This document shows, piece after piece, positions 2,330-24,894 of a stretch of DNA of 35,688 nt. The stretch comes from Candidatus Cryptobacteroides equifaecalis. Its GTDB lineage: Bacteria; Bacteroidota; Bacteroidia; Bacteroidales; UBA932. The stretch covers positions 1 to 35,688 of the forward strand of contig JAGHUW010000148.1 of NCBI GenBank assembly GCA_018064625.1, read 5' to 3'. Under the pieces are notes generated by a model. It was not told the origin of the DNA, ran no database searches, and was given only the letters and a program-made list of their open reading frames with translations. Position numbers and translations under genes: made by a program. Every line of letters begins with the position of its first letter. Positions within the stretch are counted from its first letter, which is position 1.

Positions 2330-2890
2330 ATGAAAGAGGAAGACATTTATAAAATTTATGCCGGCACTTCCGATGAGATAATCAAGGAAGGATATGAGGG
2401 TACAAAGCTGGAAAAGAAACGCCAGAGAGAGAGGTTTGACCGCCTTGACTCAAAGGCCACAACGCTCGTTGAAAGGATGGCAGTGGTTGCCCTAGCGCTC
2501 ACAGGTACACTATATATGTATATGAACTCGGCAAGTCCAAGCCTGTGGCCGCTGCTGGCAATGGCGATTGTCCTTGCCGCCACGGTAGTATCCGGATGCA
2601 TTCTGATATTCGGTGTGCTCTCGGGCCGAAGTTTCATCTCTGACGGCATCAATCCGGATCTGTACTACAACAACGAGGTTGTTGAGTGGTGCTCGGAATG
2701 CGATAAGAATAAAAGGACAAGTCTATTCAGGCTGTACCGTACATTGGTTCTGAAGAAAGAGATATCCCTCAACGAAGCCGAACTGCAGCGCATGGCAAAA
2801 CGTCACCGATGGAGCATACGAATATGGTGTGCAGGCGGTGGCTTGGGTATTGTCATTTGTATTCTTTGGGGTCTGAGTTCTGCAGTATAG
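2330..2890 (+). CDS. Three-TM membrane protein, SLATT/Pycsar-effector-like topology
   Basis: I start at ATG 2330 (186 aa), just after a consensus promoter. The layout is a charged helix (residues 1-45, ending RFDRLDSKATTLVERM), two close hydrophobic segments (about 48-66 and 71-95), a soluble stretch with two cysteines (WCSECDKNK), an amphipathic helix, and a final TM (about 165-185). The R-x-D-x-KA-x-L motif just before paired TMs resembles SLATT and Pycsar-type 2TM effector families, but similarity is by pattern only. Its place beside the repressor with a private promoter suggests a lysogeny-expressed gene, for instance for superinfection exclusion or defence. That role is inference. Confidence 0.6.
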   Translation: MKEEDIYKIYAGTSDEIIKEGYEGTKLEKKRQRERFDRLDSKATTLVERMAVVALALTGTLYMYMNSASPSLWPLLAMAIVLAATVVSGCILIFGVLSGRSFISDGINPDLYYNNEVVEWCSECDKNKRTSLFRLYRTLVLKKEISLNEAELQRMAKRHRWSIRIWCAGGGLGIVICILWGLSSAV

Positions 2891-4344: not shown

Positions 4345-4365
4345 AATAGCAGCATAGCAAGCGCA

Positions 4366-4465
4366 CCCCCGTAGTTCAACGGACAGAACAGTTCCATAGG
4401 GTTACTATACTTACCATGGACAGGAAGATGGAGCAGATGCGGGTTCGAATCCCGCCGGGGGACCA
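4366..4465 (+). ncRNA. tRNA-like element 1 (with encoded CCA, oversized anticodon arm)
   Basis: A 6-bp acceptor stem CCCCCG/CGGGGG (4366-4371 with 4456-4461), D-arm GTTC-AACGGACA-GAAC (4374-4389) and T-arm GCGGG-TTCGAAT-CCCGC (4439-4455) are all perfect, and A-CCA follows. Between the D and T arms are 49 nt, more than even a long-variable-arm tRNA needs. No 5-bp/7-nt anticodon arm fits. The best hairpin is TCCAT/ATGGA (4393-4397 with 4416-4420) closing an 18-nt loop. It is probably a tRNA mimic, a degenerate tRNA or an RNase P-processed spacer, not a decoding tRNA. Gene finders may call it a tRNA of uncertain identity. Confidence 0.6.
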
Positions 4466-4909: not shown

Positions 4910-6943
4910 ATGGAGATAATCAACGATAGAGTATGCGTCACAGCTGGCGAACTTGATGGAATCATAGGTTATGAGACAATCAAGAAACTTGCCCAGCGTG
5001 GTCAGGCGGAACGCGCCCAGCGCGGCTGCAAGGACCGTGCATCCCTGTTCTACGTTGATTCCCTCCCGTACAAGTACCGCACCGAGGTGCACAGGAGGTT
5101 TCCGGACCTTGAGTCCCGTGCGGAGAGCAGGCCTTTCACCGAGTCGGTGGAGCCGGACGGTGAGGCGTACGCCTTCTACGAGGGCTACACCTTCGCCAAC
5201 GGAAGCCATCTCACCCCGGAGAAGATAGAGGAGTACAGCAACAACGCTGCCGTGCTCAACTCGTTCCGCCGCTGGCTGGAAGTGTCGAACGGCATGAGGA
5301 GCAAGACCGGGCACAGGAAGGTAAGGAAGGGCGAGTTCTGGGCCATGGCGGCCAAGGCCGTGGAGAAGATGGCGGACACGTTCCCCAACACCCTCCCGTC
5401 CAGCGAGAGGAGGCTCCAGGAGAAGTTCAACGACTACGAGAGGGACGGCTACGTTGCGCTCATCAGCGGCAAGCACGGCAACAGCAACGCCGCCAAGGTG
5501 GAGACGGAGGCCCAGAAGGCCGCCATCAGCGCGCTGTGCGCCATACCTAACGGACTGAGCAACGCCTTCGTGGCAAGGCAGTACAACGACGTCATGAAGA
5601 GGACCGGAGGCGAGACCATCACCGCCGGCACCGTGGGGAGGCTCCGCAAGGAGAACGGCCTTGCCATTGACGCCATGCGCCACGGCAGCAGCCATTTCTC
5701 CAACACCCGCGCCATGCAGGTGTCACGCACCAGGCCTACGGCGGCCATGCTGCTGTGGTCCCTGGACGGATGGGATGCGGAGCTCTACTACCAGAAGCGC
5801 AACGCCAAAGGCGTGGTCACGTACAACAACAGGAAGGTGCTGGAGGTGGTGCTTGACGCATGCTGCGACTATCCGATAGGCTACGCAATAGGCGACCAGG
5901 AGGATTCGCAGCTCATAGCCGAGGCTCTGAGGAATGCGGCCAACCACACGAGGGAGCTGTTCGGATCGCGCTACATGACATGCCAGATCCAGAGCGACCA
6001 CTACGCATTGAAGACAATGACGCCGTACTACTCCACCGTTGCCGACAAGGTGACTCCGGCCAGGGTGCGCAACGCCAAGAGCAAGCCGGTCGAGAGATAT
6101 TTCCTTGACATCAATGAAAGATACTGCAAGACGCAGCAGAACTGGAGCGGTTACGGCATCACGGCAAAGAAGGAGCACCAGCCGAACACGGAGTACCACA
6201 ATCTCGTGAAGAAGAACTTCCCGGACGAGGAGGGAGTGATCAGGCAGATTGAAGAGATCATAGCCGTTGAGCGTGCGAGCAAGCTGGAGGAGTACATGAA
6301 GTTCTGGGAGCTCACACCTGCCGACAGGCGGCTTCCTCTTCCGGACGAACGCTTCCTGCTCAGGTTCGGCAGGAGCAGCGGCCACACCAACGTGCTTCAG
6401 GGGCAGGGAATGTGCCCAAGGATAGGCGGAGTCAGACGCCAGTACGAGTGCTTTGACATAAGCTTCAGGGACAAGGCGTACCTGCGCTGGGACATCAGAT
6501 ATGATGAGAGCGACCTGAGCCATGTCCTTGCCGTGAGCGAGGACGGCAAGTACAGGTACATGCTGGAGGAGAAGTATCTGCAGCCAATGGCCCTTGCCGA
6601 CAGGAAGGAGGGTGACGCACTGCAGCTGGAGAGGGTGCGCGACTACAACAGGGCGCTGACCGACCACACGAGCGAGATGTTCCTTCAGATCAGCGAGCAT
6701 GCCAGGCCGCTGATCAGCGGAATGGCCGCCGAGGCGCTGGAGAGCCCGGACGCACACAACGTGCTTGCCAAGGAGCTGCTGACTGACAGCCGCGGGCAGC
6801 ACAAGAGCCGCAGGGCCGGCGAAAGGCGCAGGCTCGCCGCCGCGGCAGCGGATGCGGAGGACATCCAGCCCGTTGCGGTTCCGGTGGTTGTTGAGAACGC
6901 TCCTGCAGGAGAGAACAGGGTGAACACGTTCGACCTTTATTGA
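4910..6943 (+). CDS. Mu-type DDE transposase (MuA-like)
   Basis: A 677-aa protein, close in size to MuA (663). The N-terminal 60 residues (CVTAGELDGI...RTEVHRRFP) form the Mu-type winged-helix domain that recognises sites in the element. The catalytic core carries the DDE triad in family context: D286 in WSLDGW, D363 in QSDHY and E395 in KPVERYF. The YDESDLSHVLAV segment begins the C-terminal beta-barrel, and the end is Ala/Arg-rich, as in MuA's regions for MuB contact. It cuts and joins phage ends for integration and replicative transposition. It is followed by the target-selecting ATPase, the standard A-B order. Confidence 0.95.
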   Translation: MEIINDRVCVTAGELDGIIGYETIKKLAQRGQAERAQRGCKDRASLFYVDSLPYKYRTEVHRRFPDLESRAESRPFTESVEPDGEAYAFYEGYTFANGSHLTPEKIEEYSNNAAVLNSFRRWLEVSNGMRSKTGHRKVRKGEFWAMAAKAVEKMADTFPNTLPSSERRLQEKFNDYERDGYVALISGKHGNSNAAKVETEAQKAAISALCAIPNGLSNAFVARQYNDVMKRTGGETITAGTVGRLRKENGLAIDAMRHGSSHFSNTRAMQVSRTRPTAAMLLWSLDGWDAELYYQKRNAKGVVTYNNRKVLEVVLDACCDYPIGYAIGDQEDSQLIAEALRNAANHTRELFGSRYMTCQIQSDHYALKTMTPYYSTVADKVTPARVRNAKSKPVERYFLDINERYCKTQQNWSGYGITAKKEHQPNTEYHNLVKKNFPDEEGVIRQIEEIIAVERASKLEEYMKFWELTPADRRLPLPDERFLLRFGRSSGHTNVLQGQGMCPRIGGVRRQYECFDISFRDKAYLRWDIRYDESDLSHVLAVSEDGKYRYMLEEKYLQPMALADRKEGDALQLERVRDYNRALTDHTSEMFLQISEHARPLISGMAAEALESPDAHNVLAKELLTDSRGQHKSRRAGERRRLAAAAADAEDIQPVAVPVVVENAPAGENRVNTFDLY

Positions 6944-16360: not shown

Positions 16361-16953
16361 CATTTCAGGTCCAGGACCTTCATCACTTCGGTTTCGATTA
16401 TTGTCCTTGCGGACTGCGTAAGATCCCCGGACTCTCCCATGAACTGGCGTCTGGGTATGCTGGCCCTTACCGTGAGCGACGTCTTCTTCGTGAGGGCGAG
16501 ACCTTTCCACATTTCGGCCTCCTTGGAGTCACCGCCCTGCTTTTTCCTGCCCCCTCCGGATTTGTAGTACATGGCCCATGCGAATCGGCGCATCTTCTGT
16601 GACACCTTGGGGTGTGTGGTCACGGTGCCTCCCTCGTTGTGTATCCCGGCATAGACGATGTTGGAGAATATGGTTACCGAACCCCGTCCGGGCGTGTATC
16701 CTATGGAATTGTACAGCACCTTGCGGCTGGACAGCAGCGGTCCTCTCCTGGAGTCGGCGCCGTTGCCTAGCAGCTGTCTCCGGGTCTTCTGCCATGCGTG
16801 CAGGCCTCCGTCCTGGAACCCTCCCTTGCGGAAGTTCTCCTGAAACAGCGACTTCGCCCTGGCTCCTATCTTTATGGGGAGCGTGCGGTTCATCAGCCTC
16901 TCGAACTCCGGGCCGATACGTTTGAGGTGGTCGAAGAACTCCTTTTCCGTCAT
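16360..16953 (-). CDS. Virion morphogenesis protein, Mu gpG-like
   Basis: This 197-aa protein matches the phage virion morphogenesis family (PF05069, Mu gpG/tail-completion type). It has an N-terminal helix, then FQENFRKGGFQDGGLHAWQKT, LLSSRKVLYNSIGYTP, the strand VTIFSNIVYAGIHNEGG and the RRQFMGES segment near the C-terminus. A family-typical Gly/Lys-rich loop follows KMRRFAWAMYYK. In Mu it joins head and tail assembly. It is the last gene of the leftward operon and overlaps the gp49-like gene by 4 bases. Confidence 0.88.
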   Translation of the reverse strand: MTEKEFFDHLKRIGPEFERLMNRTLPIKIGARAKSLFQENFRKGGFQDGGLHAWQKTRRQLLGNGADSRRGPLLSSRKVLYNSIGYTPGRGSVTIFSNIVYAGIHNEGGTVTTHPKVSQKMRRFAWAMYYKSGGGRKKQGGDSKEAEMWKGLALTKKTSLTVRASIPRRQFMGESGDLTQSARTIIETEVMKVLDLK

Positions 16954-17222
16954 TTTCTTCCTGCCTGATAAAGGTTCTCCTGAAGGAGGAATCCGAGGAG
17001 GTACCAGATGCGGTCTTCAATCTTCCTGAGACAGATTTCAAGGCCGATCTTTTCGTCATAGGCTGACGGATCCACGCAGGTGGTGGACTCGCGGAGGGTG
17101 AAGCCGTTCTTCATCCGGACTGTCACGCAGCACACCGGCTTGTCGAACTCCATCTCGGTGCGGCACACGACATCCTGCATGTTCTCGGCGACCTGTTCCT
17201 TTGTTACAGAAATTTGTGGCAT
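16950..17222 (-). CDS. Gp49-like phage protein (PF13876 type)
   Basis: This 90-aa protein has the pattern of the small phage Gp49/gp66 family: VTVRMKNGFTLRESTTCVDPSAYDEKIGLEICLRKIEDRIWYLLGFLL. In that family a beta hairpin is followed by the CVDP-x-x-x-D-x-x-x-G motif and a helix ending in W-x-x-x-G. These small proteins occur among structural and accessory genes of many prophages; their function is unknown. It lies 120 bases after the MuF-toxin gene and overlaps the gpG-like gene by 4 bases. Confidence 0.75.
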   Translation of the reverse strand: MPQISVTKEQVAENMQDVVCRTEMEFDKPVCCVTVRMKNGFTLRESTTCVDPSAYDEKIGLEICLRKIEDRIWYLLGFLLQENLYQAGRK

Positions 17223-17248
17223 AAGTGCTTGGATTTAAAAATTGTTTG

Positions 17249-17350
17249 TATATTTGCAGTGATTCCTTTTATGGAAGTGAGCGTCCCGCAAGGGTCGCAC
17301 AGCTTGTCCGGCCTCAGAGTCTTCTCTGGGGCCGCCCCATTTTTATATGG
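17249..17350 (+). ncRNA. Candidate structured small RNA, antisense to the head-operon mRNA
   Basis: On the plus strand, opposite to all surrounding genes, a consensus -7 box TATATTTGC (17249-17257) is followed by two hairpins. GCGTCCC-GCAA-GGGTCGC (17281-17298) has a GNRA tetraloop and one internal T-T mismatch. GGCCTCAGAG-TCTT-CTCTGGGGCC (17310-17333) is a 10-bp stem with one G-U pair. TTTTT (17340-17344) follows, a plausible terminator. The predicted RNA, about 85 nt from 17264, ends at the toxin-MuF stop codon and is complementary to the leftward mRNA's intergenic region. No ORF fits. Confidence 0.55.
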
Positions 17351-18647
17351 TGTATATATTATCTTCTCGCCCTGAGAAATAATACAATATGTGTTTGCCT
17401 TCCATTTTGTATTTTCTGAGTTTGCTATATACATCCTTGTTTTCTTCCTCAAATTCAATCAGCACCAGTTCCGCTTTCTGGTCTCTTAGTGCGTGATCAA
17501 CATAATGGTCAAGGTTGTTGACACTGCGCGTCTTTTTCAAATCTGCAGGTTTCCCATCACAAAGAACATCATACAATCCTTCACGCTCTCGCAGATGAAC
17601 CATTCTGTGTCCTGCGTTGGCAAAGTTTGCACACATAGTGTGCTCCTTAAGGTACTTTTCCCATTCGTTGCCGGTCTTTTTTGCTGGTATACGAGTGCTT
17701 TCAGTGACCAGGTATCCGTCTCCTCTCCTGAACTCCTGTATCCAGCCCTCCCCGAAATATTCATATTTTTCCGGTATGCCGGATATCTCAACCTTGTTTG
17801 ACTGAAGAATTTTTTCAATGTACTTGCAGTTGCCGCAGTCCTTCACCTTGTTGGTGGGCGCGGCGGACTGCTGTCTGCCGTAGAACGGACAGCTCTGGCA
17901 GTCGTCCGGGAAATACGGGTGCGTATCTGAAAACAGCCTGCCGTCCTTGCCGGGGTTGTTGTCAAGGCCCGGGGCAGCCCGGTAACCTGCAGTGGGCGAA
18001 GGTGTCACCGGATCGTCCGTCGCCTCCAGCGAGCACTGGCATCCCCACCTGTCGCCCGGGCGGTGTGCACTCCAGAACGGGTGGTCAACCGGCAGCACGG
18101 TGTTCCACAGGGACATGTGCACGGCCTCCGGTGTGGCCGCCGTTGACGGAACCCACCTGAGGTTGGGCAGGACGTCCTTCTCCCTCTCGAACCTCTGCCA
18201 GTCGGCCGCCAGCGAGGCCCTCTTCACCGCCGTGTCGTACTCGGTCCTGAGCCATCTGCCGCACTGGTGCGATGTGATATCCTTTATGTCTTCCTTGAAG
18301 CGCGCGAATGTCTTGAGGTTGCCCTCGTCGTCAAGCAGCCTCGATGCGATGTCCTGCTGCATGCGGTGCGCCTTGAACGCACTGAACACCTCATTGCTGC
18401 GGACCACCCTCATCCTGAACTCTGGCGTGAGCTCCTCCGCATCCCCGAACCCTTTGGCGGCGGCCAGGTCGAACGTGTCCGCGAAGCCCCTGAACAGTTC
18501 CGGATGAATCTCAGTGTAGGGGTTGATCCGTTTGGAGTATATATCCTTGAGCGCCTTTTGAACGGCGTTTGAAAGGTCTATGGGAGTGGCGGCCACATTG
18601 ACCGGCATGAATGAATCGGGACCGTAATACAGGTCATTCATCACCAT
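17343..18647 (-). CDS. MuF head protein fused to a C-terminal nuclease-like toxin domain
   Basis: 434 aa. Residues 1-250 are a Mu gpF-like minor head protein: helical start, AVKRASLAADWQRF, and the signature HPFWSAHRPGDRWGCQCSL followed by DGRLFSDTHPYF. A Cys-rich bridge (CQSC, CGNC, 250-275) leads to an unrelated C-terminal domain (about 295-434) containing ANFANAGHRMVHL, LYDVLCDGKPADLKKT (D360, D369, K371) and a final beta/helix unit. This resembles CdiA-CT-type nuclease toxins (PD-(D/E)xK- or BECR-like) and the known MuF polymorphic-toxin architecture. The 3' part is AT-richer than the 5' part, suggesting domain exchange. An alternative start is ATG 18641. No immunity gene is seen next to it. 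Confidence 0.82.
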   Translation of the reverse strand: MVMNDLYYGPDSFMPVNVAATPIDLSNAVQKALKDIYSKRINPYTEIHPELFRGFADTFDLAAAKGFGDAEELTPEFRMRVVRSNEVFSAFKAHRMQQDIASRLLDDEGNLKTFARFKEDIKDITSHQCGRWLRTEYDTAVKRASLAADWQRFEREKDVLPNLRWVPSTAATPEAVHMSLWNTVLPVDHPFWSAHRPGDRWGCQCSLEATDDPVTPSPTAGYRAAPGLDNNPGKDGRLFSDTHPYFPDDCQSCPFYGRQQSAAPTNKVKDCGNCKYIEKILQSNKVEISGIPEKYEYFGEGWIQEFRRGDGYLVTESTRIPAKKTGNEWEKYLKEHTMCANFANAGHRMVHLREREGLYDVLCDGKPADLKKTRSVNNLDHYVDHALRDQKAELVLIEFEEENKDVYSKLRKYKMEGKHILYYFSGREDNIYTI

Positions 18648-19954
18648 TCTGAAGCCCCGTCTCCCGCCGGGGCCTCCCCGAAAAAACGTCTCGCCCTGTT
18701 CTGCGGGCTGTCCTGTGTTCCGCGCAGCGTCTCCAGCTGCCTCTGCCTGCGCTCGTTCTCCATGTCCTTGAGGGCCTTGTAATCGTCCGGCTTCTCTATG
18801 CCCAGCTGCTCGTACATGTAGTCGTCGGATATCGGGAGCCCCATGTCCAGGGCCTTCCTGAACAGGTCGGCCTTCTCGGCCGCCGACATCCTTTCCGGCT
18901 CCACGAAGACGAACTCGCCTCCGGACGTGTCCATGCCCAGGTTGCGGAATATGTCGGCCATCTCGTAGTTCAGCACGTTGAGCACGAACACCCTGTCATC
19001 GGCGGCCAGCTCCTCCTCCACCTCCCTGTGCACGGTTCCGAGAGCCTGCGTTCCGGTGTCCGAGGCTTCCGTGGTCAGCGTGTTGCACAGTATGGCCTTG
19101 GACAGCTCGGCGTTGCACCGCTCCACCAGCCTGTCGTACACGTCTGCGCTTCCGGACTTGTTGCCGGACTCCTGGAACCTGAGGCTGCTGCCCTCGGGAT
19201 GTATGTACACACCGTTGCTTCCAAGGGACTGGGCGTCCTCCATGGTGCGTCTTCTGGCCTCGTCATCGGCCGCATCGTATATGTACTCCCTTATCGGCAT
19301 GCCGAACACCTCGGAGTACTCGGACCAGTCGCCCATCGTGCCGGTCTTGTATATGACGTACGGGGCGCAGCGGGCCAGTGCGCCCAGCGGTTCCGGCCCC
19401 TCTATGAGAAGGAGGTTGCCGTATTCGTCGAACGGTATGCCGAGCACGTCGCTCTGCCTGCGGCGTATGAGGCGCAGCTGCGGGTCCACATGCTTGCGGG
19501 GCACCATGGTGTAGTCGATCCAGCCCTTTTCGTTGATGAAGAACTGCACGAGGGTGAGACCCCAGAACTTAGCGTCCAGCACGTCGCCTATGAAGCGGTA
19601 GAACCATGGGGACCTGATGTTGTCATTGATCCTGTCGTCCGGCACGCCGCGCCTCCTGAACTCTATAGGCGAGCCCAGTATGGCGGCCTTCCTCTTCTGA
19701 ATGACCGAGCCCAGGTGCGGATCCATGAGAATGTTGGAGTAGATGTCGTACAGCCTGGTCCTTCTGGTGTAGTCAACGTTCTCCGCACCGGACACCGCCG
19801 CCTTGTAGTCCCCTATGTCGATACCGAACCTCGCCGGCTGCTGCAGTATGATGGTTGCCCCCGGACGGGATATCTGTCCTCCGGCGGTGATGACCGGCTC
19901 CCTTGTCGTTTGAGCCTTGTCCTTTGTTCTGTTGAAGAAAGTAAGCAGTTTCAT
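18641..19954 (-). CDS. Portal protein, DUF935 / Mu gp29 family
   Basis: This 437-aa protein is typical of DUF935 portals: YDIYSNILMDPHLGSVIQKRKAAILGSPIEF near residues 68-98, then WFYRFIGDVLDAKFWGLTLVQF, FDEYGNLLL and the conserved end region GLPISDDYMYEQLGI. Portals form the dodecameric DNA gate at one head vertex. The length is a little under Mu gp29. The gene overlaps the MuF gene by 7 bases and follows the DUF1320 gene by 12. The terminase-portal-MuF order is the Mu arrangement apart from the position of DUF1320. Confidence 0.93.
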   Translation of the reverse strand: MKLLTFFNRTKDKAQTTREPVITAGGQISRPGATIILQQPARFGIDIGDYKAAVSGAENVDYTRRTRLYDIYSNILMDPHLGSVIQKRKAAILGSPIEFRRRGVPDDRINDNIRSPWFYRFIGDVLDAKFWGLTLVQFFINEKGWIDYTMVPRKHVDPQLRLIRRRQSDVLGIPFDEYGNLLLIEGPEPLGALARCAPYVIYKTGTMGDWSEYSEVFGMPIREYIYDAADDEARRRTMEDAQSLGSNGVYIHPEGSSLRFQESGNKSGSADVYDRLVERCNAELSKAILCNTLTTEASDTGTQALGTVHREVEEELAADDRVFVLNVLNYEMADIFRNLGMDTSGGEFVFVEPERMSAAEKADLFRKALDMGLPISDDYMYEQLGIEKPDDYKALKDMENERRQRQLETLRGTQDSPQNRARRFFGEAPAGDGASEW

Positions 19955-19966
19955 TTCGTTCCGTGT

Positions 19967-20392
19967 TTATAGGTGTTGTTCACGCTTCCTGTTCGATGAT
20001 GTGAGTGACACTGCGTTCTGCCTGCGCGTGTCTTCCGGCAGCAGCGGTGCGTCCGGTATGGATATCTTTGATGCGGCCACGGCCTTGAGCCACTCCACGG
20101 CCCTGTTGTAGCGGTCCACCCTCATCTGCGAGAGCTTCTGCGGATTGTGTATGCAGAATATGTGGTACACCGATATGTCAATGGCCATCATCAGTATGAG
20201 ATTGTTGCGGGCCTGGCCGCGCGCCGCGAATATGGCGTCGCAGTCATAGCGCGTCCCGAGGTAGGACTTCATCTCATCCACGGCCCTGTCCTCGCATATC
20301 TCGACCACCGATGCGTCCTGACGCGTGACCGCTGCCAGAATCTCCGGGTGCACCGATGCGTCATAATCCTCAATGTCAATGAACATGCTCAT
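19967..20392 (-). CDS. DUF1320 protein, Mu gp36-like head completion
   Basis: This 141-aa protein has the DUF1320 pattern. An N-terminal helix contains the acidic stretch VEICEDRAVDEMKSYLGTRYD. ARNNLILMMAIDISVYHIFCIHNP and the helix YNRAVEWLKAVAASKI follow, with a polar tail. Mu gp36-type proteins are head-tail connector or completion proteins. It overlaps the large terminase gene by 4 bases. In Mu the equivalent follows the capsid gene, so its location between terminase and portal here is a rearrangement. Confidence 0.85.
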   Translation of the reverse strand: MSMFIDIEDYDASVHPEILAAVTRQDASVVEICEDRAVDEMKSYLGTRYDCDAIFAARGQARNNLILMMAIDISVYHIFCIHNPQKLSQMRVDRYNRAVEWLKAVAASKISIPDAPLLPEDTRRQNAVSLTSSNRKREQHL

Positions 20393-21903
20393 AGTTTCCT
20401 GTCTGATTTCTTTCTCGGAAGAGATATTGCCGGCTCCTCCACCCGGACTCTGTTTCGTATTATCCTGTACGCCCCCTCCACCTGGTCCGGTCCGTCGGCC
20501 GGATACTTGAGCGCGGAGGTGAACAGCGTGAACTGCTCGGCCAGACGCTTCATGTGCGGGTTGTCCGCCTCTGCCTGGTTGAGCACCATGCGTCCGTCAC
20601 GGTTGAGAGGCTCCAGGTTGGCCTCTATTCTGGTGGCCTTGTCCGTCTTGCGCTGTTCGTCGCCCTTGATGGACAGCATGCGCCCTCTCCTGCGGCACTC
20701 CTCCTGGACGAGCGGCTTGAACACCTGCTGGAAGAAAGGATCCTGCAGGGAGTTGTTCTCCATGTAGAGGAACAGCGGAGCCTTTTCACCGACATAGTCC
20801 GCCATCTCGAAGTACCATCTGATGAACTCGGCGTTCAGCGCATGGTCCAGGAAGCACTTGATGACATAGAGCATGCCCGAATGCATCCCTACGAGGCACA
20901 CGCCCTTGGTGGAGGAGCCTTTCCTTCCCTTCTCCCCGGGGGCCGGGTCTCCGTAGGCCACGAGGAACTTGAACTTCGAGAGCGCCGGCACCCTGCCCCA
21001 CCGCAGTTCCTTGAACACTTCGCCCTCTGACACGGGGTTGTTGTAGTACTCCTTCTGCTGCGAGGCGGTGGATATCTTGGAGAGGGTGGTGTCGATATGC
21101 TCCTCGGTGTTCTTCTCCGGCCATGTGCTGCGGCCCGATGCGTCCCTTATGTTCACTATGTCATGGTGGTTGGCGTAGGCGGCGGCCCTTAGCACGCAGC
21201 AGTCCTTGGCTATTATGTTGCCGCACCATACGATGAGCGTGGGTTCGGAAATGGACCTGGTGGCGTAGAACGCCTGCTCGTACCACTGCCATTTCTTCTC
21301 TATGATGTCCGGATTGCGGCATTCCTCGTCAGTGTCGAAGTCGTCCACCAGCAGGATGTCCGGGCGCACCTCGTCGTTCCTGGATCCTCGCGGGGCGTTG
21401 CCGGCTCCCACGGCCCTGAATGCGGCTCCTCCCTTGGTGATGAACTCCCTGTCGGTCCAGCTTCCCATGTTCACCTGCTCCCCGTAGAACATCCTTATCC
21501 TTGCGTTAGCCTCCAGGTTGGCTCTGTACGGGGCAAGCAGCCTGATTGCGGCGTCCTGCGTGGAGGAGGCGAGCATGACGTTCCTCTTGCGCCCCGTGAG
21601 GGTGAGGAGCATGACGCAGAACATGATGACGGTGCTCTTGGCCAGCTCCCTGCTCCAGGAAAGCACCTCGTACCATTCGTCATGTCCGAGTATCCTGTCA
21701 ATGGCCCTGAGTTGGAAGGCGGCGAAAGGGTACTTGGCGTACTTCGGAAAGAAGTATTGTATCCATTCCACCGGATGCGATTCGAGATGTTTCCTCTTCG
21801 CCACCAGCTCGGCGTGCGAGAGCGATTCCGCAGGTATCTCCCTGCGGATGGAATCCAGATATTCGGCCCAAAGCCTGCGGGCCTCAAGTTCCGACTGCTT
21901 CAT
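20389..21903 (-). CDS. Terminase large subunit, Mu gp28-like
   Basis: Starting at ATG 21903 (504 aa; the track adds a GTG codon). An ATPase half has a Walker A-like SWSRELAKST (about 82-91) and Walker B ILLVDDFDTDE. A C-terminal RNase H-like nuclease half has the first metal-binding Asp in AYGDPAPGEKG and further acidic residues downstream (LYMENN). It powers headful DNA packaging and cuts phage DNA from flanking host DNA in Mu-like phages. The upstream small-terminase gene ends in TGATG, so the stop overlaps this start by one base. Confidence 0.93.
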   Translation of the reverse strand: MKQSELEARRLWAEYLDSIRREIPAESLSHAELVAKRKHLESHPVEWIQYFFPKYAKYPFAAFQLRAIDRILGHDEWYEVLSWSRELAKSTVIMFCVMLLTLTGRKRNVMLASSTQDAAIRLLAPYRANLEANARIRMFYGEQVNMGSWTDREFITKGGAAFRAVGAGNAPRGSRNDEVRPDILLVDDFDTDEECRNPDIIEKKWQWYEQAFYATRSISEPTLIVWCGNIIAKDCCVLRAAAYANHHDIVNIRDASGRSTWPEKNTEEHIDTTLSKISTASQQKEYYNNPVSEGEVFKELRWGRVPALSKFKFLVAYGDPAPGEKGRKGSSTKGVCLVGMHSGMLYVIKCFLDHALNAEFIRWYFEMADYVGEKAPLFLYMENNSLQDPFFQQVFKPLVQEECRRRGRMLSIKGDEQRKTDKATRIEANLEPLNRDGRMVLNQAEADNPHMKRLAEQFTLFTSALKYPADGPDQVEGAYRIIRNRVRVEEPAISLPRKKSDRKL

Positions 21904-22346
21904 CACATCTGGTCTTTAATGAACATGTCCCAGTACTCCGCGAACTCCCTGGCCCTGTCAGAATCGGCCTTCCGCATCCATTCAAGAAATTTTATCCCGA
22001 CGGATATCATGTCGGCGATGCCGGTGTCGCTCTCCATCTTCCTTATGGCTGCGGAAAGCTTGCCTATCGTGTCGGCTTCCGAGGCCGATGCGAAGCGCTG
22101 TCCGTCCTCCCTCTCCAGGATGGCCCTGTTCAGCTCGCCCACCTGGCGGTAAAGGTTCTTGATCTGTTCCTCCTTGGTGAGCGTGAGCCCCGCCTTCAGC
22201 TCCTCCCACTTGCCCTCGCTTATCCACTTGTTCACGGACTGTCTGGAGCTGCCGACCTTCTCGGCTATCTCCTTCTGGGTCAGGTTCTCCTTGACATAGA
22301 GCATCCTCGCCCATTCTCTTTTCTGTTTGCTTGTGAGTTGTGCCAT
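21903..22346 (-). CDS. Small terminase-like HTH protein, Mu gp27 / DUF1804-like
   Basis: ATG 22346 (MAQLTSKQKREWARMLYVKE) is chosen; the track's longer frame reads the twin palindromes. The 147-aa product has an HTH at residues 17-42 (ENLTQKEIAEKVGSSRQSVNKWI), a helical middle (IKNLYRQVGELNRAILERE) and a final helical region. This is the usual build of Mu-type small terminases (DUF1804), which recognise the packaging start. It is the first gene of the leftward head operon. GCAAAGATG (22364-22372) gives a -7-like box, CATCTTTGC, in its direction, 18 bases before the ATG. Confidence 0.82.
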   Translation of the reverse strand: MAQLTSKQKREWARMLYVKENLTQKEIAEKVGSSRQSVNKWISEGKWEELKAGLTLTKEEQIKNLYRQVGELNRAILEREDGQRFASASEADTIGKLSAAIRKMESDTGIADMISVGIKFLEWMRKADSDRAREFAEYWDMFIKDQM

Positions 22347-23676: not shown

Positions 23677-24894
23677 ATGGGACTGAACATTCAGAATTCA
23701 AACTACAACGGTGAGGTGCTTGAGCAGCTGCTCACTCTCGCCGCAACAGGCAACGAGCTCGTCGAGAAGGGGCTCATCCGTGTCGAGCCTAACATCGGCT
23801 ACAAATTCAGCATTCCGCGTCTCAAGAGCGGAACCATGCTTCAGAAAAGAAAGGAGCAGCCTAGCGACTCCGATTCCAAGGGCGATTTCGATTACTCCGA
23901 GAGGGTTCTCAAGCCTGAGGAGTTCATGGCTTTCACCACATTCAACCCGCGTTCGTTCGAGAGGGTATGGCGCAAATGGCAGCCCAAGGGGCCGCTCGTG
24001 TTCGCACAGCTCCCTGCAGAGGCCCAGAACGCCCTCCTGGCTGAACTGGCCAAGCAGGTGAAGTTCGAGCTCGGCGACCATTTCATCAACGGCGTGTACG
24101 AGGAGGGAACGGATGACGACAAGCTCTTCAACGGCATCATCTACAGAATGGAGCATGCGGAGAACAAGATTGTGGTGAACACGGACCAGACCACCATGAT
24201 AGGGAAGCTCAAGGCCCTCAAGGCGCGCATCCCTCAGACCATGAGAAGCAATCCGGACCTGTGCATCATCATGAGCGTGACAGACTTCGACCAGTACGAC
24301 GATGAGCTCTCGGCACAGCAGAGCAAGGGTGCGGACTATACCGACATGAACCCTGAAAGGTTCAAGGGCATAGCCATCTCGCCTCTTTCCCTGTGGCCTG
24401 ACGGCCTTATCGTGGCCACAATCGCCTCACCTGAGGTCACATCAAACCTCTGGGCCGGCGTTGACTTCCTTGATGACGAGAACGTCATCCAGATTGACAA
24501 GCTCACCAATGCCGGGGAGAAGTACTTCTTCAAGATGCTTCTCAAGGCCGACACCTGCATAGCGTTCGACGAGGAGGTCGTATGGCTTGACCACAGGGAC
24601 TATGAAGGACCTGTAATCACAGGCGCCGAGCTCATCGACGATTTCGCCGCAACATCCGGCAGCAAGCAGAGGACATACGCCACAAGCAACGGCGAGCCTG
24701 TCACAGCGCAGAGCAATGCGGACTGGATCACAGCCACCGTGGGCTCGGACGGTCACAAGGTGACATTCGCGGTGACTGCATACGCACATGCCGAGTCAGG
24801 TGACGACCCTAGGGTGGGCACCGTGACACTGGCCATTGCCGGCACAAGCGCCACCAAGACCGTGACCATCAAGCAGGCCATGGCCGAGGAATAA
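23677..24894 (+). CDS. Major capsid protein with C-terminal BACON domain
   Basis: 405 aa. Residues 1-320 have the layout of an HK97-fold capsid protein: a helical/beta start, KFELGDHFINGVYEEG, a central DLCIIMSVTDFDQYDDEL, and late strands LWAGVDFLDDENVIQIDK. It lies after the protease/scaffold and before lysis and tail genes. Residues about 325-405 read as a BACON domain: TYATSNGEPVTAQSNADWI, VTFAVTAYAHAES, RVGTVTLAIAGTSATKTVTI. BACON domains are Ig-like and often bind glycans or mucin. Such a domain would be displayed on the capsid surface. The domain call is from pattern. Confidence 0.87.
   Translation: MGLNIQNSNYNGEVLEQLLTLAATGNELVEKGLIRVEPNIGYKFSIPRLKSGTMLQKRKEQPSDSDSKGDFDYSERVLKPEEFMAFTTFNPRSFERVWRKWQPKGPLVFAQLPAEAQNALLAELAKQVKFELGDHFINGVYEEGTDDDKLFNGIIYRMEHAENKIVVNTDQTTMIGKLKALKARIPQTMRSNPDLCIIMSVTDFDQYDDELSAQQSKGADYTDMNPERFKGIAISPLSLWPDGLIVATIASPEVTSNLWAGVDFLDDENVIQIDKLTNAGEKYFFKMLLKADTCIAFDEEVVWLDHRDYEGPVITGAELIDDFAATSGSKQRTYATSNGEPVTAQSNADWITATVGSDGHKVTFAVTAYAHAESGDDPRVGTVTLAIAGTSATKTVTIKQAMAEE

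Follow-up and report, generated by a model that had tools for sequence, protein, structure and literature searches.

The MuF toxin gene and its surroundings

The window analysed here, a stretch of 35,688 nucleotides of contig JAGHUW010000148.1 from Candidatus Cryptobacteroides equifaecalis, contains a phage head gene of the MuF type with a nuclease-like C-terminal domain, and directly behind its stop codon lies a predicted small RNA (sRNA) gene on the opposite strand, which we consider a candidate immunity factor against that domain. The open reading frame (ORF) of the head protein was found as delimited in an earlier reading of the letters alone (hereafter the sequence-only reading), on the minus strand and with a length of 434 residues (Table 1). 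Phage_Mu_F (PF04233) is recognised by Pfam at residues 117-207 (E 2.8e-7) and alignments with relatives from Bacteroides phages are confined to residues 1-247, in agreement with the previous assignment of residues 1-250 to MuF. The portal gene (18641-19954), which overlaps the start of the MuF gene, and the terminase gene (20389-21906) are both located upstream, and an N-terminal MuF domain in a head protein beside portal and terminase is a trait shared with the MuF polymorphic toxins.

No immunity ORF was found beside the toxin and the 120-nt gap downstream is without a co-directional ORF, as had been remarked before. Relatives of the next ORF on the same strand (90 aa) turned up in 362 records of phages with unrelated hosts; it is therefore regarded as an ordinary phage protein, and this wide spread ruled it out as an immunity gene. 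A small immunity ORF is reported to follow MuF toxins in 89.4% of cases (PMC5576092, 2017), and every Bxa-type case of 2024 is reported to have one after the toxin (Alexei 2024, PMC11699363).

Identity, fold and exchange of the C-terminal domain

The part of the gene encoding the last ~150 residues is AT-rich, with a GC content of 0.43-0.45 against 0.58-0.67, which bears out the different, AT-richer domain proposed in the sequence-only reading. In an alignment of 37 homologs (window residue = alignment position + 284), E335 of the first helix, D360 and K371 never vary, and position 369 holds D or E; the D-x8-D-x-K signature pointed out earlier is thus conserved in these homologs in the form D-x8-(D/E)-x-K, a PD-(D/E)XK pattern. 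CdiA_C (PF18451) of Pfam matches 27 of the 37 homologs at E <= 0.01 (best 3.9e-9), and the window domain alone, used as the query, found no match in Pfam, NCBIfam or the PDB. In the MuF family phrog_23416, the C-terminus is the same as that of the window protein.

The AlphaFold model of the toxin domain (pLDDT 90, pTM 0.84) has a sole Foldseek match below 0.001 in the PDB, namely 4g6v, CdiA-CT/CdiI (E 2.8e-5), with which it superposes at Z 10.7 over 121 residues, the next row being at Z 6.4. The likeness to nucleases of contact-dependent inhibition (CDI) suggested before is therefore seen both in the homologs and in the model, and the best match is a CDI toxin, not the structural phage domain that had been named as the outcome speaking against a toxin. 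The assignment of residues ~285-434 to a nuclease domain of the CdiA_C kind, a toxin of the CDI type, is supported by the Pfam matches, the structural match and the exchange between backbones described below, and the domain probably cuts tRNA in a cell that receives it by injection. CdiA-type tRNase domains have been described as MuF toxins by Jamet et al. 2017 (PMC5576092), and the window domain is accordingly a divergent example of an already known toxin class.

Homologs of the domain were found in Bacteroidota by whole-genome and viral searches. A first scan of viral contigs with the window protein gave nothing, nor did a search of cultured phages and plasmids with the C-terminal domain at E 0.01; the full window protein detected Elizabethkingia phage TCUEAP3 (22% identity), the C-terminus of which is nuclease-like, related but different. 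Two matches were rejected as chance, one to a shadow ORF (L008) and one to a housekeeping enzyme (L025). Two MuF lineages bear the domain, a Mu-gp30-like group that includes the window and an SPP1-gp7-like group, which do not match each other at E 1e-10, and stand-alone genes of ~155-250 aa also consist of it. Sibling MuFs in related genomes end otherwise, with Gln_amidase, with weaker CdiA_C matches or with metallopeptidase-like HELGH motifs. The nuclease domain is hence exchangeable and mobile, occurring on at least two unrelated MuF backbones and alone, and is not conserved with the MuF part in the manner that would have pointed away from a polymorphic toxin.

A predicted convergent small RNA gene behind the toxin

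An RNA candidate had been noticed in the downstream gap. It is present in the 120 nt and reads best on the opposite strand, where an sRNA gene convergent with the toxin gene is predicted, and a two-hairpin element of this kind stands directly behind the stop codon of nearly every domain homolog. With the Bacteroides promoter consensus (taken from PMC7366714), an antisense -7 box TAnnTTTG was found at 35 of 39 toxin genes against 5.3 in shuffles, and a strict two-box antisense promoter at 21 of 39 against 0.34 in shuffles, with none on the sense strand. The promoter is followed by a first hairpin, P2, which often has a GAAA or GCAA loop (GNRA), and then by a second hairpin, the U-run of which finishes on the nucleotides complementary to the stop codon; the predicted sRNAs are ~60-110 nt long.

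Seven of the eight pairs of P2 covary, with 88% of cells paired, a level reached by 0 of 500 shuffles; slid versions attain at most 46%, a control biased in favour of P2, which was taken from folds of single members. Folding is more favourable on the antisense strand in 26 of 34 cases, with a p of 1.6e-5 that is optimistic because the sequences are related. The element matches no described family of Rfam 15 at gathering or relaxed threshold. At one locus (L046) the toxin is present and the sRNA promoter is not clear, and at three others (L070, L071, L076) a longer, different RNA element lies behind the toxin, the -7 box being absent within 170 nt.

Several other readings of the 3' element were considered and rejected. 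On the sense strand, alifold gives an almost structureless result, no U-run follows the hairpin, and C-A mismatches turn into G-U pairs on the other strand. Programmed readthrough or frameshifting at the stop is contradicted by a second in-frame stop within a few codons in several relatives, and consistent core sites of an integron attC-like site were not seen, as judged by eye only. An immunity peptide in the antisense transcript was dismissed, as 20 of 34 sRNAs have no ATG frame of at least 15 codons and the existing frames share no peptide.

Table 1. Features of the window around the MuF toxin gene, with the evidence for each
Feature	Position	Strand	Evidence or remark
MuF minor head protein with predicted C-terminal nuclease toxin domain, 434 aa	17343..18647	-	ORF, Pfam, neighbouring portal/terminase
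MuF part, residues 1-250	17898..18647	-	Pfam PF04233 at residues 117-207; phage relatives over 1-247
Predicted CdiA_C-type PD-(D/E)XK nuclease toxin domain, residues 285-434	17346..17795	-	37-member alignment, Pfam CdiA_C, AlphaFold model, 4g6v match
Putative catalytic signature D360-x8-D369-x-K371	17535..17570	-	Helix Glu E335 at 17643-17645; conservation in 37 homologs
Predicted Bacteroidetes-type sRNA promoter	17228..17256	+	-7 TATATTTG at 17249-17256; imperfect -33 (CTTG) at 17228-17231
Predicted convergent sRNA, candidate RNA immunity factor, ~85 nt	17259..17345	+	Start inferred from promoter; match of model R1
P2 hairpin UG-A-GCG-U-CCC-[GCAA]-GGG-U-CGC-A-CA	17278..17301	+	Covariation at 7/8 pairs
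Terminator hairpin and U-run: CGGCCUCAGAG UCUU CUCUGGGGCCG CCCCA UUUUUA	17309..17345	+	Folding; last bases complementary to the toxin stop codon
Next gene downstream, 90 aa, common phage protein, not an immunity gene	16950..17222	-	phrog_9467/phrog_322; 362 phage records

Elsewhere in the window, a major-head-like gene at 23677-24894 has a C-terminus that resembles, by eye from the sequence, a BACON-type carbohydrate-binding domain, and a tRNA gene recognised by Rfam lies at 4365-4463, within the phage window.

Linkage of the RNA to the toxin

A blind search of 2.9 million viral contigs with an exact 21-nt string from one version of the element returned 12 loci, 10 of them with the nuclease: in nine, the upstream toxin ORF stops 41-48 nt before the match, and L055 is the cut end of a toxin. 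The remaining two (L056 and L057, near-identical in this region) carry tandem sRNA copies with no toxin nearby. A covariance model of the element, R1, gave 37 matches at E <= 1 in 478 kb, and 36 of these are at the ends of MuF or stand-alone toxin genes on the opposite strand (about 15 of the matches at toxin ends are outside the training set). The match at L017 is weak (E 0.77) and follows a MuF toxin with another type of CdiA_C domain, and that in the window, at 17278-17345, has an E-value of 1.2e-4 in this search.

In the host genome the window copy is the only significant match of R1, and 386 Bacteroidales genomes gave eight matches at E <= 0.01, seven at these toxins and one an orphan in a genome (G434) where no toxin accompanies it. 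A generic Bacteroidales terminator was ruled out by these low counts. A structured RNA gene tightly linked to a toxin is a trait of type III toxin-antitoxin systems; the upstream, co-transcribed RNA repeats of such systems are not seen, the element here being single, downstream and on the opposite strand.

The RNA also varies with the protein. Where the toxin has an SS(P/S)D-type insertion ahead of D360, P2 is long (14 of 14 cases), and where the insertion is lacking, P2 is short (16 of 17), the classes having been set after inspection and the counts being of sequences and not of events. Both classes occur on each MuF backbone and as stand-alone genes. Distances between toxins and between P2 sequences are correlated (Mantel correlation 0.40), and 0 of 5000 permutations gave a value as high.

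Some side observations concern copies of the toxin or the RNA. Stand-alone nuclease genes at L029, L031 and L034 are chromosomal; second, degenerate RNA copies adjoin those at L029 and L034, and in L031 (7399-7667) there is a second toxin, broken and accompanied by an RNA of its own. In L056 (5990-6330; the same region in L057) the two tandem toxin-less sRNAs adjoin the major head gene of a Mu-like transposable phage and may represent orphan RNA immunity, and an orphan sRNA with no toxin gene adjacent occurs in a Bacteroidales genome (L101, 5355-5418, minus strand).

The corresponding position behind other MuF toxins

Among 285 other ORFs of the same loci, taken as a control, seven have strict antisense promoters, and five of these are behind MuF toxins with other C-termini. 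An antisense -7 box was found 61-112 nt behind the stop in all nine examined MuFs with other C-termini, and is absent at two MuFs (L005/L004), one without a toxin domain and one with a metallopeptidase-like end. Elizabethkingia phage TCUEAP3 has a strict promoter, a hairpin and a terminator behind its MuF with the related nuclease-like C-terminus. As a side observation, Bacteroidales MuFs with other C-termini (L002, L003, L006, L007, L008, L010, L011, L016, L017) show, past the stop codon, a promoter box in convergent orientation and in most cases hairpins; no matching small ORF was seen behind these genes, and the RNAs look like different families.

The papain-fold MuFs of Bacteroides phage p00 (Hankyphage), of BKO1-TP4 and of genome G066 are followed at the same position by a gene for a small protein, convergent and with a -7 box, the fold of the MuF C-terminus being called by Pfam (Gln_amidase) in G066 and by eye in p00 and BKO1-TP4. 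Convergent genes for proteins of 73-100 aa behind such glutamine-deamidase-type MuFs, Hankyphage p00 included, are located at 4923-5222 (minus strand) of L104, 4923-5174 (minus strand) of L106 and 2606-2827 (plus strand) of L107. These proteins, annotated as hypothetical, are likely immunity proteins. Small ORFs beside such toxins are considered immunity genes by Alexei et al. (PMC11699363), and together with the convergent protein genes this makes the convergent position look like an immunity slot, seemingly occupied by a protein gene where the toxin is a deamidase and by an RNA gene where it is a nuclease.

A candidate RNA immunity factor and its alternatives

In our proposal, immunity is provided by the RNA, acting as a type III-like antitoxin against a polymorphic toxin carried in the virion; we give this reading, which is drawn from sequence and predicted structure, a probability of roughly 0.6. 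By analogy with SPP1 gp7, the MuF toxin would sit at the portal inside the capsid, and its CdiA_C-type PD-(D/E)XK nuclease would be injected into a cell and cut tRNA there. The convergent gene, equipped with a promoter of the housekeeping type and a terminator of its own, would give rise to a structured RNA of ~60-110 nt, which, if expressed in the lysogen, may inhibit the nuclease by binding to it, in the manner of a type III antitoxin; the lysogen would thereby be protected from its own and from incoming particles. Such inhibition by binding would explain the missing immunity ORF, the separate promoter, the matching of subtypes and the orphan copies, which by analogy parallel orphan immunity genes. 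The suggestion of the sequence-only reading that protection might come from RNA is strongly, if circumstantially, supported by the presence of a predicted convergent sRNA gene that moves together with the nuclease.

Extended to Bacteroidota phages at large, the proposal is that nuclease-ended MuF toxins are accompanied by a convergent sRNA, which inactivates them by binding and is encoded where other MuF toxins have an immunity protein gene, that toxin and RNA travel as one cassette, and that orphan RNAs are collected by phages as protection; we hold this to be somewhat better than an even chance.

Certain observations weigh against an immunity role. The -33 box of the window is imperfect and the R1 E-value there is moderate (3.9e-4 per genome). 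The subtypes may trace to few evolutionary events, in which case their agreement counts sequences and not events, and the orphan copies could be leftovers of deleted toxin genes. The sRNA-like convergent elements behind other MuF C-termini imply that the arrangement could partly serve a general purpose, for example insulation of toxin cassettes.

Of the alternatives, the one that survives best, though improbable, is that the convergent RNA is a cis-antisense regulator, or acts by transcriptional interference, lowering the MuF-toxin message in the lysogen in a DonS-like manner, so that protection comes from non-expression. Cis-antisense sRNAs are common in Bacteroides (PMC7366714) and an RNA convergent with the toxin gene and perfectly complementary to its 3' end is what one would look for; however, the RNA terminates at the toxin's stop codon, short of the coding sequence, its P2 is structured and covaries across phages, its subtype tracks that of the protein, orphan copies exist with no sense partner, and interference offers no protection against a toxin injected from outside.

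Slightly less probable still is that the element is a bidirectional terminator or insulator, or a cassette boundary for C-terminus exchange, with a functionless RNA product. It does mark the 3' end of exchanged C-termini, a terminator hairpin is present and analogous elements occur at the ends of other MuF toxins, but neither a full promoter aimed at the gene (strict in 21 of 39) nor a covarying GNRA hairpin ahead of the terminator is necessary for a boundary, and the window copy is the sole one in its genome and so not a generic terminator.

In OMEGA-type systems, a structured RNA is closely linked to a nuclease and located immediately 3' of it. A role of the RNA as substrate, cofactor or guide working with the nuclease (for example co-packaged), and not as inhibitor, would fit the same linkage and the matching of subtypes, yet we consider it very unlikely: a variable guide segment is absent and conserved stems and a terminator are found in its place, the RNA has a separate promoter on the opposite strand, the nuclease folds like a small CDI toxin, which needs no RNA, and papain-fold MuFs have a protein gene in the same slot. 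Hardly to be credited is a C-terminal domain that is no toxin and acts on phage or competitor DNA at packaging or entry, with immunity unneeded, since, despite the DNases and resolvases among PD-(D/E)XK folds (Hjc, XisH and FokI are weak structural matches of the domain model), a CDI toxin is by far the best match and the domain moves between head proteins, also exists as a stand-alone gene and nearly always has the sRNA behind it.

If the RNA is indeed the immunity factor, surveys that hunt for immunity ORFs would overlook RNA immunity, type III-like inhibition by RNA would reach a new toxin fold and virion-delivered toxins, and the problem of missing immunity in MuF toxins would become testable; immunity to polymorphic toxins has so far been taken as a protein encoded beside the toxin. 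TCUEAP3 offers a related arrangement in a cultured phage and Hankyphage the protein version of the slot. No RNA antitoxin joined with a polymorphic toxin in this way was found in the literature searched, the coverage of which is incomplete.

Comparison with known systems

The window gene resembles the MuF polymorphic toxins (Jamet 2017, PMC5576092) and those of the Bxa type (Alexei 2024, PMC11699363) in its MuF N-terminus, its exchangeable C-terminal toxin domain and its place in the late region of a temperate phage, whereas the small immunity ORF that follows the toxin in those systems is replaced here by a convergent sRNA gene. With CdiA-CT of Burkholderia pseudomallei 1026b (4g6v; PF18451) the window domain has in common the fold and a core of the D-x8-(D/E)-x-K type; the Burkholderia toxin, unlike the window system, is delivered by CDI and neutralised by a protein, CdiI.

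A protein toxin and a structured RNA at the same locus are likewise known from ToxIN, TenpIN and CptIN and from AbiF-RCd22 of C. difficile (PMC12373285), where RCd22 inhibits AbiF by binding and ToxI inhibits ToxN; for the window, neutralisation by RNA is proposed. In type III systems an array of RNA repeats lies upstream and is co-directional, in contrast to the single, convergent, downstream RNA with its own promoter seen here, and the window toxin belongs to a virion protein and has a PD-(D/E)XK fold unrelated to theirs. The closest counterparts in layout are the convergent genes behind the glutamine-deamidase MuFs of p00, BKO1-TP4 and G066, which agree in position, orientation and -7 box and encode proteins of 73-100 aa where the nuclease MuFs have a noncoding RNA.
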